The notes under the pieces: generated by a model
Database searches by the model: none
The model's input: only the letters and a program-made list of their open reading frames with translations
Told to the model about the DNA's origin: nothing
Translations under genes and position numbers: made by a program
In this document: positions 3,787 through 62,128 of the stretch, in pieces
How positions within the stretch are numbered: the first letter of the stretch is position 1
Layout: the number at the start of each line of letters is the position of its first letter
DNA from: Aneurinibacillus uraniidurans
GTDB lineage: Bacteria > Bacillota > Bacilli > Aneurinibacillales > Aneurinibacillaceae
Reading direction: 5' to 3'
Assembly: GCF_028471905.1 (NCBI RefSeq)
Contig: NZ_CP116902.1
Location: forward strand, 3,570,001-3,634,000
DNA length: 64,000 nt

Positions 3787-3863
3787 CTTTCCTTAAAATC
3801 ATAACGTTTTTACGATATCACACCGCAAGCTCCACATCACCCAAAATATCCACAAACGTACAC

Positions 3864-3907
3864 AAAAAACCACCTGCTTCTATTCAGTCAGATGCAGGTG
3901 GTTTTTT
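3864..3907 (-). terminator. Terminator after the nitroreductase gene
   Basis: AAAAAACCACCTGC pairs with GCAGGTGGTTTTTT across a 16-nt loop, immediately after the nitroreductase stop. The symmetric A and T runs make it usable from either side. Confidence 0.9.
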
Positions 3908-6473: not shown

Positions 6474-6770
6474 ATAAAAAACTCCCAGCCTGAAACAATG
6501 CTCAGGCGGGAGTTCGCGGTACCACTCAGCTTCTCTGTTTTCCTCACGGAAAACAGACTCATATAAGTCTCTATCAAGACCCTGCCCAGTAACGTGGGCG
6601 TATCCGTTGCTTCTTATTCCGATGATTATACAGTCGTTTCAGCAGCAAAGCTCAAAGGTGATGTTCAAAGAAAGATGATGTCCGTCCTCTCAGCCTTGGG
6701 ACAGCTCTCTGCGCATCAGCGCTTTCTTCTACTTTTCCTTATCGGCGCTTTTTTATTTTTCTAAACTTTT
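6474..6770 (-). promoter_or_regulatory. T-box leader, probable isoleucine specifier
   Basis: The minus strand carries the T-box core TGGTACCGCG (6515-6524), followed by a terminator stem built from AACTCCC..GCCTGA and TCAGGC..GGGAGTT plus a T run (6476-6514). Upstream lies the long stem I region. The specifier reads GAAC-ATC-ACC, giving ATC (Ile) at 6660-6662 followed by the usual A. This fits ilvA as target. The codon assignment rests on reading the specifier loop by eye; ACC (Thr) in the neighbouring frame is the alternative. Confidence 0.9.
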
Positions 6771-12890: not shown

Positions 12891-13078
12891 AAAAAAACAC
12901 CCTTCACAGATGGAAGGGTGTTGGATGCAGCGGTCCGCTCGTCTGCTACCTCTCATCTGTTAGAACACGTATGTTCTACAGGAATTAGCACCGTTCACAC
13001 AATTGTCTATACAGACCATTCATGTGATGGTTGCCGGGCATCATCGGGCCAGTCCCTCCGCCTCTCTGGATAAGAGAA
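12891..13078 (-). promoter_or_regulatory. SAM-I (S-box) riboswitch with terminator
   Basis: On the minus strand the conserved S-box blocks appear in order: TCTTATCCAGAGAGGCGGAG, GGACTGGCCCGATGATGCCC, GGCAACC, GGTGCTAATTCC and AGATGAGAGG. A terminator follows (AACACCCTTC / GAAGGGTGTTTTTTT, 12891-12922). SAM binding should promote termination ahead of metI-metC. Confidence 0.97.
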
Positions 13079-55538: not shown

Positions 55539-57023
55539 TTATTTCGAAATAGATATAGTTTTTGTTACAACTGTTTGTTGAAATGCCTGATCATGCTCAA
55601 CAATAACCATTGTGGGATTAAATTGTTGAATAAGCTCTTCAATCTGCATACGCGAATAAATATCAACAAAATTTAATGGTTCATCCCATATATATAAATG
55701 AGCTTTTTCACATAAACTTTTAGCGATAAGCAGCTTTTTCTTTTGTCCACCAGAATAATGAGATATATCTTTCTCAAATTGAATTCGGTCAAAATCCATC
55801 TTACGTAGAATGGATTTAAATAACGTCTCATCAATCTCGTGCTCTTCAATAAAGTCCGATAACGACCCCTTCAAATGAGAAGTATCTTGTTGGACATAGG
55901 AAATGATGAGTCCTGAACCTACATTAACTGAGCCTGTATGCTGTATTAGATGTCCTAGAATTAGTTTTAGGATACTACTTTTCCCGCTTCCATTCTTTCC
56001 ATCAAGTACAATTCGGTCCCCTTGTTCAACTATGAAGCTAATTGGTTCATTTACTATTTGGTCATCATACTTAACAGACACATCAGCCAAAACAACCAAT
56101 TCATTTGACTGAAATTTCAATTGTTCTAATTTTAACGACTCCGTTTTCTCCACATTTTTTAGTAATTTTGACTTTTCTTCAATAGCTTTTTGTTGCCTTG
56201 ATTCAAGGTTCTTCGCTCTCTTCATCATCTTGGCCGCTTTATGTCCTACAAAACCCTTATCTAACTTAGATCCCGAATTCCTTGTTCCATTTTTGGAAGC
56301 TTCCACTTGATGAGACCAACCTGCTGAACGTTGTGAAGACTGTTTTAATCTTCCTATGTCTTTTTGTAGACGCTCATTTGTAGCCTCTTCGTGTTCTTGC
56401 TGTCTATCAAAATTTACCTTCCAAGAAGAATAGTTACCACTTTGAACTTCAATATTTGCTCTATTTATAGATAAGATATGGTCAACGCATCCATCTAAAA
56501 AGATTCTGTCATGTGAAATCAAAACAAACCCTTTTTTCTTCCTTAGATAATCAGAGACCGTCTTTCGTGCATCAGTGTCTAGATGATTGGTTGGCTCATC
56601 AATTAATAGAAATTGACCCTCATTCAAAAACAGTGCAGCAAGCAACACCTTTGTTTGTTCTCCATTTGATAATGTTTTAAATGGTCGATACATGGCCTCG
56701 GCATCAACATTTAAATAGGATATTTCACGCAGAAATTCCCAATCTTCTGCTTGGGGACAAATTTCTTCAAGGATTTCATGAGTGAACTTGTTCTTATCCG
56801 AAACTGGGTAAGGGAAATAATTAAATTCTACCGAAGAAGTGATTTTCCCACTATACTCATAATTACCTAATAATAAATTAAAGAATGTCGTTTTACCTCG
56901 TCCGTTCCTACCAATAAACCCCAGCTTCCAATCCGTATCTATTTGAAAATTTACATCTTCAAAAATATTATCAAAGCTACCTGGGTATGAAAAAGTTAAG
57001 TCTTGAACTTTTATCATTGACAT
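55539..57023 (-). CDS. Lsa-type ABC-F ribosomal protection protein
   Basis: 494 residues from the ATG at 57023, 7 nt after AAAGGAGG. Two ATPase domains without membrane segments: Walker A GRNGRGKT (38-45), signature LSNGEQ (about 118-123), Walker B FLLIDEPTNHLD; linker 190-300 rich in Arg, Lys, Gln, the antibiotic-resistance-domain arm; second Walker A GKNGSGKSS, signature YSGGQKKK, Walker B LYIWDEPLNFVD. Sequence style (DTDWKLGFIGRNGRGKTT, start MSMIKVQDLTFSYPG) fits the Lsa/Vga group protecting against lincosamides, streptogramin A and pleuromutilins. Preceded by a leader-peptide attenuator. Spectrum inferred, not shown. Confidence 0.87.
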   Translation of the reverse strand: MSMIKVQDLTFSYPGSFDNIFEDVNFQIDTDWKLGFIGRNGRGKTTFFNLLLGNYEYSGKITSSVEFNYFPYPVSDKNKFTHEILEEICPQAEDWEFLREISYLNVDAEAMYRPFKTLSNGEQTKVLLAALFLNEGQFLLIDEPTNHLDTDARKTVSDYLRKKKGFVLISHDRIFLDGCVDHILSINRANIEVQSGNYSSWKVNFDRQQEHEEATNERLQKDIGRLKQSSQRSAGWSHQVEASKNGTRNSGSKLDKGFVGHKAAKMMKRAKNLESRQQKAIEEKSKLLKNVEKTESLKLEQLKFQSNELVVLADVSVKYDDQIVNEPISFIVEQGDRIVLDGKNGSGKSSILKLILGHLIQHTGSVNVGSGLIISYVQQDTSHLKGSLSDFIEEHEIDETLFKSILRKMDFDRIQFEKDISHYSGGQKKKLLIAKSLCEKAHLYIWDEPLNFVDIYSRMQIEELIQQFNPTMVIVEHDQAFQQTVVTKTISISK

Positions 57024-57061
57024 AATAATTCCTCCTTTATATATCAACACTTTTCACATAA

Positions 57062-57130
57062 AGTCGGAATATCCATCAATTTTTAAATTCCTCTATATAA
57101 GTTTGATGGATATTAACGACTTATATAGAG
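57062..57130 (-). promoter_or_regulatory. Attenuator with alternative stems before the ABC-F gene
   Basis: On the transcript four segments follow: 1 CTCTATATAAGT (inside the leader ORF, 57119-57130), 2 AATATCCATCAA (57103-57114), 3 ACTTATATAGAG (57091-57102), 4 TTGATGGATATT (57068-57079). 1 pairs perfectly with 3, 2 perfectly with 4, extended by AGTCG/CGACT. The pairings are mutually exclusive or pseudoknotted. Free segment 4 (ATTCC) could pair with GGAAT of the Shine-Dalgarno. Confidence 0.75.
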
Positions 57131-57166
57131 CATTACATGTGTAACGATAGTGTCTGAATTACTCAT
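57113..57166 (-). CDS. Leader peptide of the ABC-F gene
   Basis: 17 codons, MSNSDTIVTHVMLYISR, preceded by AAAGGAGGGAGAAAA. Its last codons form attenuator segment 1, so a ribosome stalled here would remove that strand from pairing. Length, position and hairpin arrangement match antibiotic-sensing leaders of erm and ABC-F resistance genes (known principle; the inducer is unknown). Confidence 0.75.
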   Translation of the reverse strand: MSNSDTIVTHVMLYISR

Positions 57167-57234
57167 TTTTCTCCCTCCTTTATTTGTTAGGTTACAGTTA
57201 CGGATTAATAAATATCAACTTACCTATAAGAGAA

Positions 57235-57269
57235 TAAAAAAATCCTCCCAATTTGTAATCGGAAGGATT
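57235..57269 (-). terminator. Terminator upstream of the ABC-F leader
   Basis: Minus strand AATCCTTCC..GGGAGGATT then TTTTTTT. It may end fabF transcripts or act as an upstream attenuator; the leader ORF begins 70 nt beyond. Confidence 0.7.
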
Positions 57270-57350
57270 AGTATTTCACACTTAATAAGTTCTTATTAAT
57301 CATTGGAATCATGACAAATAAAGTATGAACTGATTTATAAAGATGGATAG

Positions 57351-57408
57351 ACTAACCCTATATTTTGTAGTTTGAAGTTATTAATTTCAAAGTAAAATAT
57401 AGATTAGT
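57351..57408. repeat. Long imperfect inverted repeat between fabF and the ABC-F leader
   Basis: Arms of about 25 nt share ACTAA, TATATTTT and TTTGAA blocks in mirrored order, with small offsets. No T run follows, so it is not a plain terminator. Confidence 0.6.
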
Positions 57409-57516
57409 TAATCATTATTCATCCATCAGTCCTCTCATCATTCTATTTTTAGAGTAACATCCTTTTTTATGGAATGCAATATCACAATCCATTTAAAGTT
57501 AACACAACAACTTATT

Positions 57517-58752
57517 TTATTCGTACTTTTTCAGAACAATGACCGCATTGTGCCCACCGAAACCAAAAGAATTGGATAGCCCTATCTTAAGATCTGCTTT
57601 ACGTGCAACATTCGGCACATAGTCTAAATCACATAATGGGTCACGTTGTTCTTGATTAACGGTTGGAGGAATAATACCTTCTTGAAGAACTTTGGCTAAT
57701 GCAATGGCTTCCGCTCCCCCTGACGCTCCTAACATATGCCCTGTCACAGACTTATTAGCTGTTATTGGAATCTGGTATGCTTGTGTTCCAAACAGTTTTT
57801 TTATAGCCATTGTCTCAGATATATCCCCTACTGCTGTACTCGTTGCATGAGCGCTAATAATATTGATTTGCTCCGTAGAAATATTGGCATCCTTTAAAGC
57901 CATTTTCATAGCAAGATAGGCTCCCTTTCCTTCTGGATGTGTAGCTACCATGTGATGGGCATCTGAACTCGCACCGTATCCTATAACCTCCGCATAAATA
58001 TGTGCATTTCTGCGTTTTGCGTGGGATAGTGATTCAAGAATTAAAATACCTGCTCCTTCTGACATAACGAATCCATCTCGATTGGCATCAAATGGACGAC
58101 TTGCTTTTGTAGGGTCATCGTTCCTTGTAGATAAAGCGGTCGCATTACCAAAGCTAGCTAAAGACAAGTCGGTTACAGCTGCTTCCGTCCCACCTGCAAA
58201 AATGATATCAGCCCCTCCATGACGAATCACTTTTAACGCCTCACCAATGGCTGTATTTCCAATAGCGCAAGCAGAAACAGGTGACATCGTAGGCCCCATT
58301 GCACCCCATTTAATACTGATTTGTGCTGAAGCCGCATTTGAAATCATTGCGGGTACGAGAGCTGGACTAACCCTGCCCGGTCCCTTCTCTCGAAAAATAT
58401 CAACGTTTTGAATTAAAGTCTCTATTCCGCCTATACCTGAGCCAACATAGACTCCAAAACGTTCCGGGTCGATATCATGAATATTTAGATTAGCATCTGC
58501 CCATGCTTGTTCAGCAGCAACTAAAGCGAATTGACAAAATCTATCTAAACGCTTGGCATCCTTACGTCCTAGAAGTTCGTCAGCATTAAAATCTTTCACA
58601 ATTCCTGCAATTTTGGTCTTATGATTACTTACATCAAATGTATCAATGGAAGAAATACCCGACTTACCTTCAACTAGATTTCTCCAAAACTTTTCCACAT
58701 CATTTCCTAGCGGTGAGACTACTCCCATTCCCGTGATTACCACTTTTTCCAA
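57517..58752 (-). CDS. fabF: 3-oxoacyl-ACP synthase II
   Basis: 411 residues, thiolase fold. Catalytic Cys in VSACAIGNTAIG, His in SAHATSTAVGD and His in NKSVTGHMLGASGG; C-terminal NSFGFGGHNAVIVLKKYE. It elongates acyl-ACP by two carbons in fatty-acid synthesis. It stands alone, without fabH or acpP, and HATSTAVGD departs slightly from the usual HGTSTPLGD, so it may be a second, specialised FabF. The divergent MmyB-type regulator, a family with a fatty-acid-sized pocket, may control it. Confidence 0.93.
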   Translation of the reverse strand: MEKVVITGMGVVSPLGNDVEKFWRNLVEGKSGISSIDTFDVSNHKTKIAGIVKDFNADELLGRKDAKRLDRFCQFALVAAEQAWADANLNIHDIDPERFGVYVGSGIGGIETLIQNVDIFREKGPGRVSPALVPAMISNAASAQISIKWGAMGPTMSPVSACAIGNTAIGEALKVIRHGGADIIFAGGTEAAVTDLSLASFGNATALSTRNDDPTKASRPFDANRDGFVMSEGAGILILESLSHAKRRNAHIYAEVIGYGASSDAHHMVATHPEGKGAYLAMKMALKDANISTEQINIISAHATSTAVGDISETMAIKKLFGTQAYQIPITANKSVTGHMLGASGGAEAIALAKVLQEGIIPPTVNQEQRDPLCDLDYVPNVARKADLKIGLSNSFGFGGHNAVIVLKKYE

Positions 58753-61831: not shown

Positions 61832-62017
61832 TCATTTGGTTTTGACACCAAAATGAGTCGACCGTACTGTCCGTTTGTCCGTTCAGTTTCCTGAGCGTTT
61901 TGTCAGACAGCCCTGCGGCGTCGGTCGTTCACCGGGAGGCATCCGCCGAGTCATTCGATAAACCTCCACCTCGTCAACCGCTTCTCTTTTCCCCGTCCAT
62001 GAAGCGGTCCTGGCGCT
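61832..62017 (-). ncRNA. glmS self-cleaving ribozyme
   Basis: Minus strand matches the catalytic core: AGCGCCAGGACC at the cleavage site (GGCGCT on the plus strand, 62012-62017), GACGAGGTGGAGGTTTATCG, and CGGCGGATGCCTCCCGG. P1 is extended (ACCGCTTC / GAAGCGGT). P3-P4 reach about 61832. Glucosamine-6-phosphate acts as cofactor for cleavage. Ends are approximate. The remaining bases up to 62128 hold the promoter region (TTGACT seen at about 62115-62120). Confidence 0.95.
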
Positions 62018-62128
62018 TTCCGATTCATTCATTATCCTATGCAGCGAAGCTTGTTTATGGTTTCCTTCTCCTTCCACCCCCTTCTTCAATATTGATACAT
62101 TACCACAAACATTCTAAGTCAACAATAG

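Follow-up and report, generated by a model that had tools for sequence, protein, structure and literature searches.

An lsa resistance gene of Aneurinibacillus uraniidurans appears to lie behind a transcription attenuator and a translation attenuator in tandem

The 64,000-nucleotide stretch of Aneurinibacillus uraniidurans DNA analysed here (the window) carries an lsa gene, for an Lsa-family ABC-F ribosomal protection protein, that is preceded by two short upstream open reading frames (uORFs). This raises the question of how translation of the uORFs could govern lsa, and at which codon a stalled ribosome would have to stand. On the minus strand an ncr1575 element, the 17-codon uORF2 and the lsa start codon follow one another, and lsa appears to lie behind two uORF switches in tandem, a transcription attenuator and then a translation attenuator (Table 1).

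The lsa gene and a predicted transcription attenuator upstream

The lsa product scored 806.9 bits against NCBIfam NF000167 (cut-off 750), as a member of the Lsa family of ABC-F proteins, and its closest solved structure was Lsa(A) (7nhk, E = 5e-124). Given that a close lsa was present in one of the 11 genomes of its own family, the gene looks acquired. Other Rfam matches on the minus strand of the window were a glmS ribozyme before a GlmS-like gene (61856-62028), a SAM riboswitch (12950-13076) and a T-box (6499-6754).

Table 1. Features of the lsa upstream region, listed in the direction of transcription; positions are those of the window
Feature	Position	Strand	Basis
Rfam RF02452 'ncr1575', vmlR-type transcription attenuator	57236..57448	-	140.7 bits, gathering 60
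uORF1, Met-Ile-Asn-stop	57404..57415	-	sequence; same tripeptide as vmlR uORF(MIN) in the available part of PMC9226507
GGGUUAGU, proposed antiterminator 5' arm	57351..57358	-	complementary to 57265-57272; role inferred from the vmlR model
ACUAAUCC, proposed antiterminator 3' arm, overlaps terminator	57265..57272	-	complementarity; role inferred
Intrinsic terminator AUCCUUCC...GGGAGGAUUUUUUU (CCUUCC)	57236..57268	-	sole terminator-like site in 57020-57560
Shine-Dalgarno of uORF2, AAAGGAGGGAG	57171..57181	-	sequence
uORF2, 17 codons, MSNSDTIVTHVMLYISR then stop	57113..57166	-	sequence
Codons 8-10, Val-Thr-His, proposed stall motif, His10 (57139-57137) in P site	57137..57145	-	peptide-level selection and masking interval
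Segment 1, partner of 3	57119..57130	-	covariation
AAGUCG, open-form partner of CGACUU (57061-57066)	57117..57122	-	pairing 99.7%, masking block
Segment 2, partner of 4	57103..57114	-	4 of 7 scored pairs covary
Segment 3, partner of 1	57091..57102	-	covariation
Segment 4, partner of 2	57068..57079	-	covariation
Segment 5, arm sequestering lsa Shine-Dalgarno	57058..57067	-	98.3% paired with 57031-57040 family-wide
Segment 6, AUAAAGGAGG, lsa Shine-Dalgarno	57031..57040	-	covariation and sequence
lsa, Lsa-family ABC-F ribosomal protection protein gene	55539..57023	-	NF000167, nearest structure Lsa(A) 7nhk

An earlier sequence-only reading of the locus overlooked the complete vmlR-type attenuator that lies just upstream. 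This element exceeds the Rfam threshold, with a Met-Ile-Asn uORF in its first stem and a terminator before an ABC-F gene, and it folded at z -4.62, none of 200 shuffles being equally stable. An M-x-[N/Q/Y]-stop ORF was found at the matching place in all 29 tandem loci examined, and an alternative Met-Asp-Glu uORF1 was rejected because Met-Ile-Asn is the ORF retained in these loci. As described in the available part of PMC9226507, the vmlR leader of Bacillus subtilis shares the Met-Ile-Asn uORF, the large first stem, the CCUUCC terminator and the ABC-F target. The same source gives vmlR one uORF, with a Shine-Dalgarno hairpin that follows the same event, whereas here a second uORF and a switch are placed between the terminator and the gene.

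Rfam lists RF02452 as an sRNA, whereas in each of the 30 loci examined it precedes a resistance gene, the context of a cis-acting attenuator. These loci were the best per genome in the 30 genomes over the cut-off, from 299 searched; the gene that followed was an ABC-F gene in 29, and in the remaining one (L093, G174:C2 66682-66904) it was lnu(G), for a lincosamide nucleotidyltransferase. A second ncr1575 in the A. uraniidurans genome (L087, contig C1 2025901-2026099) stands before another, VmlR-like ABC-F gene.

Peptide and RNA constraints on the uORF2 leader

The 17-codon ORF with a strong ribosome site noted in the sequence-only reading was confirmed, and it follows ncr1575. Folded as a single sequence, the window leader alone gave z -1.96, with 10 of 200 shuffles at least as good; given this modest stability, the case for the leader rests on comparison. 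To this end 80 lsa relatives were taken from named genomes. A leader covariance model, built mostly from the same lsa loci that were then searched, matched 54 of the 80 at E 6e-9 or better, always directly ahead of lsa. Among plasmid loci, L113 and L116, both with lsa(B), and L114 from Priestia also carry the leader; weak remnants of it score 32.5 bits in the lsa(E) locus L115 and 28.1 bits in L041. In the lsa(E) copy, from an Enterococcus faecium plasmid (L115 1870-2010), the Shine-Dalgarno hairpin is kept and the Val-Thr-His peptide is gone. A sample of 398 genomes from the class gave 13 with a match (E 0.01 or better); 12 of these matches have an Lsa gene directly behind them and one (L127, 33.7 bits) does not. 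In a sample from the phylum, also of 398 genomes, the leader was matched in its own genome only. One weak match outside the counted set, L126, has Val-Thr-Tyr in place of Val-Thr-His, and its stem is decayed.

We counted codon changes in 55 leaders on the Lsa protein tree. At Val8-Thr9-His10, 16 of 19 changes were synonymous (0.32 expected, P = 5e-6); at the flanking codons 4, 6, 7 and 12 the count was 20 of 72 (0.29 expected, P = 0.64). Asp or Glu was retained at codon 5 in 12 of 12 changes, all 43 distinct rows have His at codon 10, and codon 11 was Val, Asp or Glu throughout. Exceptions to the motif were Ile-Thr-His in L003 and L042 and Val-Val-His in L031. This pattern of substitution indicates that the codons selected at the peptide level are 5 and 8-10. 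An RNA hairpin was dropped as the cause of Val-Thr-His conservation: only 15 of the 48 leaders have it fully paired, so it does not explain these codons.

The stall had earlier been placed at codons 12-17, and here the comparison speaks against that reading: codon 12 is free, and codons 13-17 are frame-shifted in two species and altered by stem compensation in the window and L114. In L032 and L039 the loss of one base after VTHx yields VTHEDSV and VTHVDSV, each followed by a stop, so that VTH is kept and LRISR lost. Stem 1:3 of the window leader departs from the consensus by two compensated changes, which turn Arg14 into Tyr (R14Y), and that of L114 by one, which turns it into Cys (R14C). Such compensated changes alter residue 14, so here the pairing takes precedence over the peptide sequence. 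Only one of 18 changes at codons 13-16 was synonymous, which fits an RNA-level constraint, and the position of the stop is variable, falling directly after codon 17 in 26 of 48 leaders. The Tyr14 variant is shared by a leader from another family (G143, L122), with a G.U step in the stem.

Covariation was scored on 48 distinct leaders, with three minimal forms and exact duplicates excluded. Pairing across this set was 98.6% for 1:3, 95.7% for 2:4 and 98.3% for 5:6, and dropped to 35-56% when the partners were slid out of register. Changes on both sides were seen in 8 of 29 pairs, and none of 500 shuffles reached the observed covariation score. Pairings 1:3 and 2:4, proposed as 12-bp helices, each consist of 12 complementary bases, and segments 1-4 lie where the sequence-only reading had placed them. 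They had also been thought hardly able to coexist; covariation backs both, but because the two cross, they might coexist as a pseudoknot. Segment 4 had been said to touch the lsa Shine-Dalgarno, which proved inexact, as the main holder is segment 5, just 3' of segment 4. Its hairpin with segment 6 (CCGACUUUGUAU with AUACAAAGGAGG), absent from the earlier list of elements, holds the Shine-Dalgarno, and one of its pairs covaries in 8 sequences. AAGUCG and CGACUU were 99.7% paired in the 48 leaders and nearly invariant, so that covariation lends this pairing no separate support. A segment 3:5 antisequestor was dropped, since it pairs without covariation clearly beyond shuffles. On this comparison, the evidence indicates that the leader upstream of lsa is a genuine translation attenuator.

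Predicted opening of the lsa Shine-Dalgarno by a ribosome on uORF2

We evaluated the effect of ribosome position in the 48 leaders by blocking the RNA up to the ribosome leading edge, in single-nucleotide steps, and computing the accessibility of the lsa Shine-Dalgarno. Median log10 accessibility was about -4.2 at edge 0 and about -4.3 just before the opening interval. It was -1.1 to -1.6 when the first unmasked nucleotide lay within +3 to +10 of the L13 codon; at +11 it was back to -3.6, and beyond that it sank to about -5.2. The peak lay inside this 8-nt interval in 42 of 48 leaders. Langdon and Andronescu parameters gave the same shape of curve, and with 60 nt of lsa appended (Andronescu parameters) the family rise in accessibility was smaller. 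On the vmlR uORF, the available part of PMC9226507 places the 30S toeprint 16 nt downstream of the first base in the P site; taken with an edge at +16 nt, the opening interval puts the P site on Thr9, His10 or codon 11. The interval coincides with the selected codons 8-10, and the separate peptide and RNA analyses converge on the same codons. In the minimal leaders L013, L016 and L020, segment 3 is the Shine-Dalgarno itself, and opening occurred at the same ribosome positions. A stall at the start codon of uORF2 was rejected as inducer, as the lsa site stays shut at that ribosome position.

Folding with segment 1 masked, suggested as a check by the sequence-only reading, was predicted to open the lsa site in the 48-leader family, only within the 8-nt interval. 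The mechanism put forward there, in which a stall masks segment 1, frees segment 2 to bind segment 4 and exposes the ribosome site, is predicted by the family masked folding but needs a further pairing. When segment 2 or AAGUCG was blocked at +6, the median log10 accessibility went from -1.2 to -4.1 or -5.2, respectively. This abolishes opening, so 2:4 alone is insufficient and AAGUCG:CGACUU is also needed.

The window's own leader has A/U-rich stems, and its full-length minimum-energy fold is already antisequestor-like. Followed by 36 nt of lsa, it gave an accessibility of 0.01 as free leader and 0.09-0.18 for ribosomes short of codon 8; values were 0.80-0.83 over codons 8-11 and did not exceed 0.03 afterwards. 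In RNA ending at the AUG, some early positions gave high accessibility, with 0.66 at -30, and the opening interval only 0.003-0.25. The result depends on the RNA end, so the one firm result for this leader is the fall beyond codon 11. In these folding models the window leader is a weak, context-dependent switch, and it may be a leaky copy.

These data allow us to propose, with good though not full confidence, that lsa is under two stacked uORF switches and that uORF2 opens at a Val-Thr-His stall. At the first switch, a drug-stalled ribosome on uORF1 would favour the antiterminator and RNA polymerase would pass the terminator. At the second, when no ribosome stalls, 1:3 would form and segment 5 would hold the lsa Shine-Dalgarno. 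A halt after Val-Thr-His, with about His10 in the P site, would cover the 5' half of segment 1 and leave AAGUCG free; AAGUCG and segment 2 could then pair with segment 4 and CGACUU, drawing off segment 5 and freeing the lsa Shine-Dalgarno. We infer that ribosomes stall at Val-Thr-His and that a drug directed at the peptidyl transferase centre (PTC) would be the cause. Both switches would be carried on one transcript, with the first working as in vmlR. In the 29 tandem loci, ncr1575 and the Shine-Dalgarno of uORF2 are 17-59 nt apart, which leaves scant room for a promoter between the switches; a consensus promoter scan of the terminator-uORF2 interval found none, but scans of this kind are uninformative, with 2 sites against 4.0 expected for the region.

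The masking model requires only a ribosome position, and it could be argued that any slow or stalled ribosome in mid-uORF2, under starvation or generic inhibition, opens the site, Val-Thr-His being a convenient pause. A single His codon sensing charged His-tRNA would be an example, and one His codon does stand at the right place in all 43 distinct rows. We regard this as unlikely. Neither the peptide-level conservation of Val8 and Thr9, with free synonymous change, nor the acidic codon 5 is needed by a codon-level pause, there is no run of His codons, and 12 of the 13 model matches stand before a PTC-antibiotic resistance gene, the remaining one being weak.

Two separable modules and their relation to known attenuators

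The Rfam scan covered 50 genome loci of the 80 lsa loci, 46 of them with the translation leader; ncr1575 was found at the curated cut-off in 26 of these 46 and not in the other 20. Three loci (L041, L045, L059) have ncr1575 without the leader. In L027, L030 and L037 the leader directly follows an ORF with a Cfr-type C-terminus, without a gathering-level ncr1575; the assignment was tested for L027 and L037 of these three cfr-lsa operons, and both were Cfr. Clostridial loci have, by eye, a different terminator upstream of the leader. The placing of the leader behind cfr, and behind other terminators in Clostridia, makes the modules separable.

It is improbable, in our estimate, that the translation leader is a relic, with control wholly by the vmlR-type attenuator and uORF2 mainly coupling or insulating: ncr1575 here is strong and complete, the three loci above lack the leader and the window leader is the weaker switch in silico, but in the window and in L114 the leader is preserved, its stem changes being compensated, and in L027, L030 and L037 it lies directly behind cfr without a gathering-level ncr1575.

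Translation attenuators of the erm and cat genes (ermC, cat-86) combine a leader peptide, alternative stems and a sequestered Shine-Dalgarno that is freed by a stalled ribosome. The two-switch reading gives the uORF2 leader the same parts: a translatable leader ORF with peptide-level conservation, seen in the selection on VTH; mutually exclusive pairings, one hiding the Shine-Dalgarno, seen by covariation in 48 leaders; and a predicted opening at the selected peptide motif in the 48-leader family. It differs from the erm and cat attenuators in its motif, [D/E]xx[V/I]TH followed by V, D or E, in an opening interval of about 8 nt, in its ABC-F target and in being stacked behind a transcription attenuator. 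The available part of PMC10201436 describes other uORFs ahead of resistance ABC-F genes, namely CplR MR[I/M], VmlR2 MK[L/Q] and LsaA MAGN, the last derived from an 80%-identity set around LsaA and different from uORF2. These have 3-4 codons and are likely to stall near initiation, whereas uORF2, likewise ahead of such a gene, is longer and has an internal peptide motif.

If His10 occupies the P site, Thr9 is the penultimate residue; chloramphenicol and linezolid prefer a penultimate Ala and, less so, Ser or Thr, according to the available part of PMC8987054. The accessible text of PMC8116656 reports that one Paenibacillus lsaB-like gene expressed in P. larvae gave no lincosamide resistance. 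We found no description of this leader in a literature search on the peptide, ncr1575 and Lsa leaders that was largely confined to non-subscription journals, and a stalling peptide ending in Val-Thr-His seems previously undescribed. Only tentatively do we suggest that [D/E]xx[V/I]TH defines a new class of arrest peptides whose action depends on a PTC drug, with lsa under a two-input gate, a proposal we find possible but on balance doubtful. If true, uORF1 would report ribosomes blocked soon after initiation and uORF2 those that go on elongating under drug and halt at Val-Thr-His, and the resistance factor would be made only when both signals are present.

The two-switch reading would add a new arrest-peptide motif, with the stall site predicted to codon level, and recast the Rfam 'sRNA' ncr1575 as a cis-acting antibiotic-response leader. 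It would also show stacking and evolutionary re-assortment of two ribosome-sensing switches, with ncr1575 and leader together, the leader alone behind cfr, or other terminators in Clostridia. Mobile lsa(B), which lies beside cfr on staphylococcal plasmids, may be inducible, and this the leader would explain.

Further observations concern cfr. In L016 the sequence just ahead of the leader (3860-3890) resembles, by eye, the last Cfr codons, which suggests a decayed cfr-lsa operon. Just downstream of cfr, an extra ncr1575 was found in L113 (1593-1810; Staphylococcus aureus plasmid NZ_CP028164.1) and L116 (5807-6024), and no resistance gene is annotated close behind it on the same strand. The cfr-like genes before lsa in L037 (about 2578-2803) and L027 (about 2573-2793) have a putative leader of their own: a terminator, a uORF that starts MMFEVVNVHVSRSLS (L037) and a hairpin that covers the Shine-Dalgarno of cfr.
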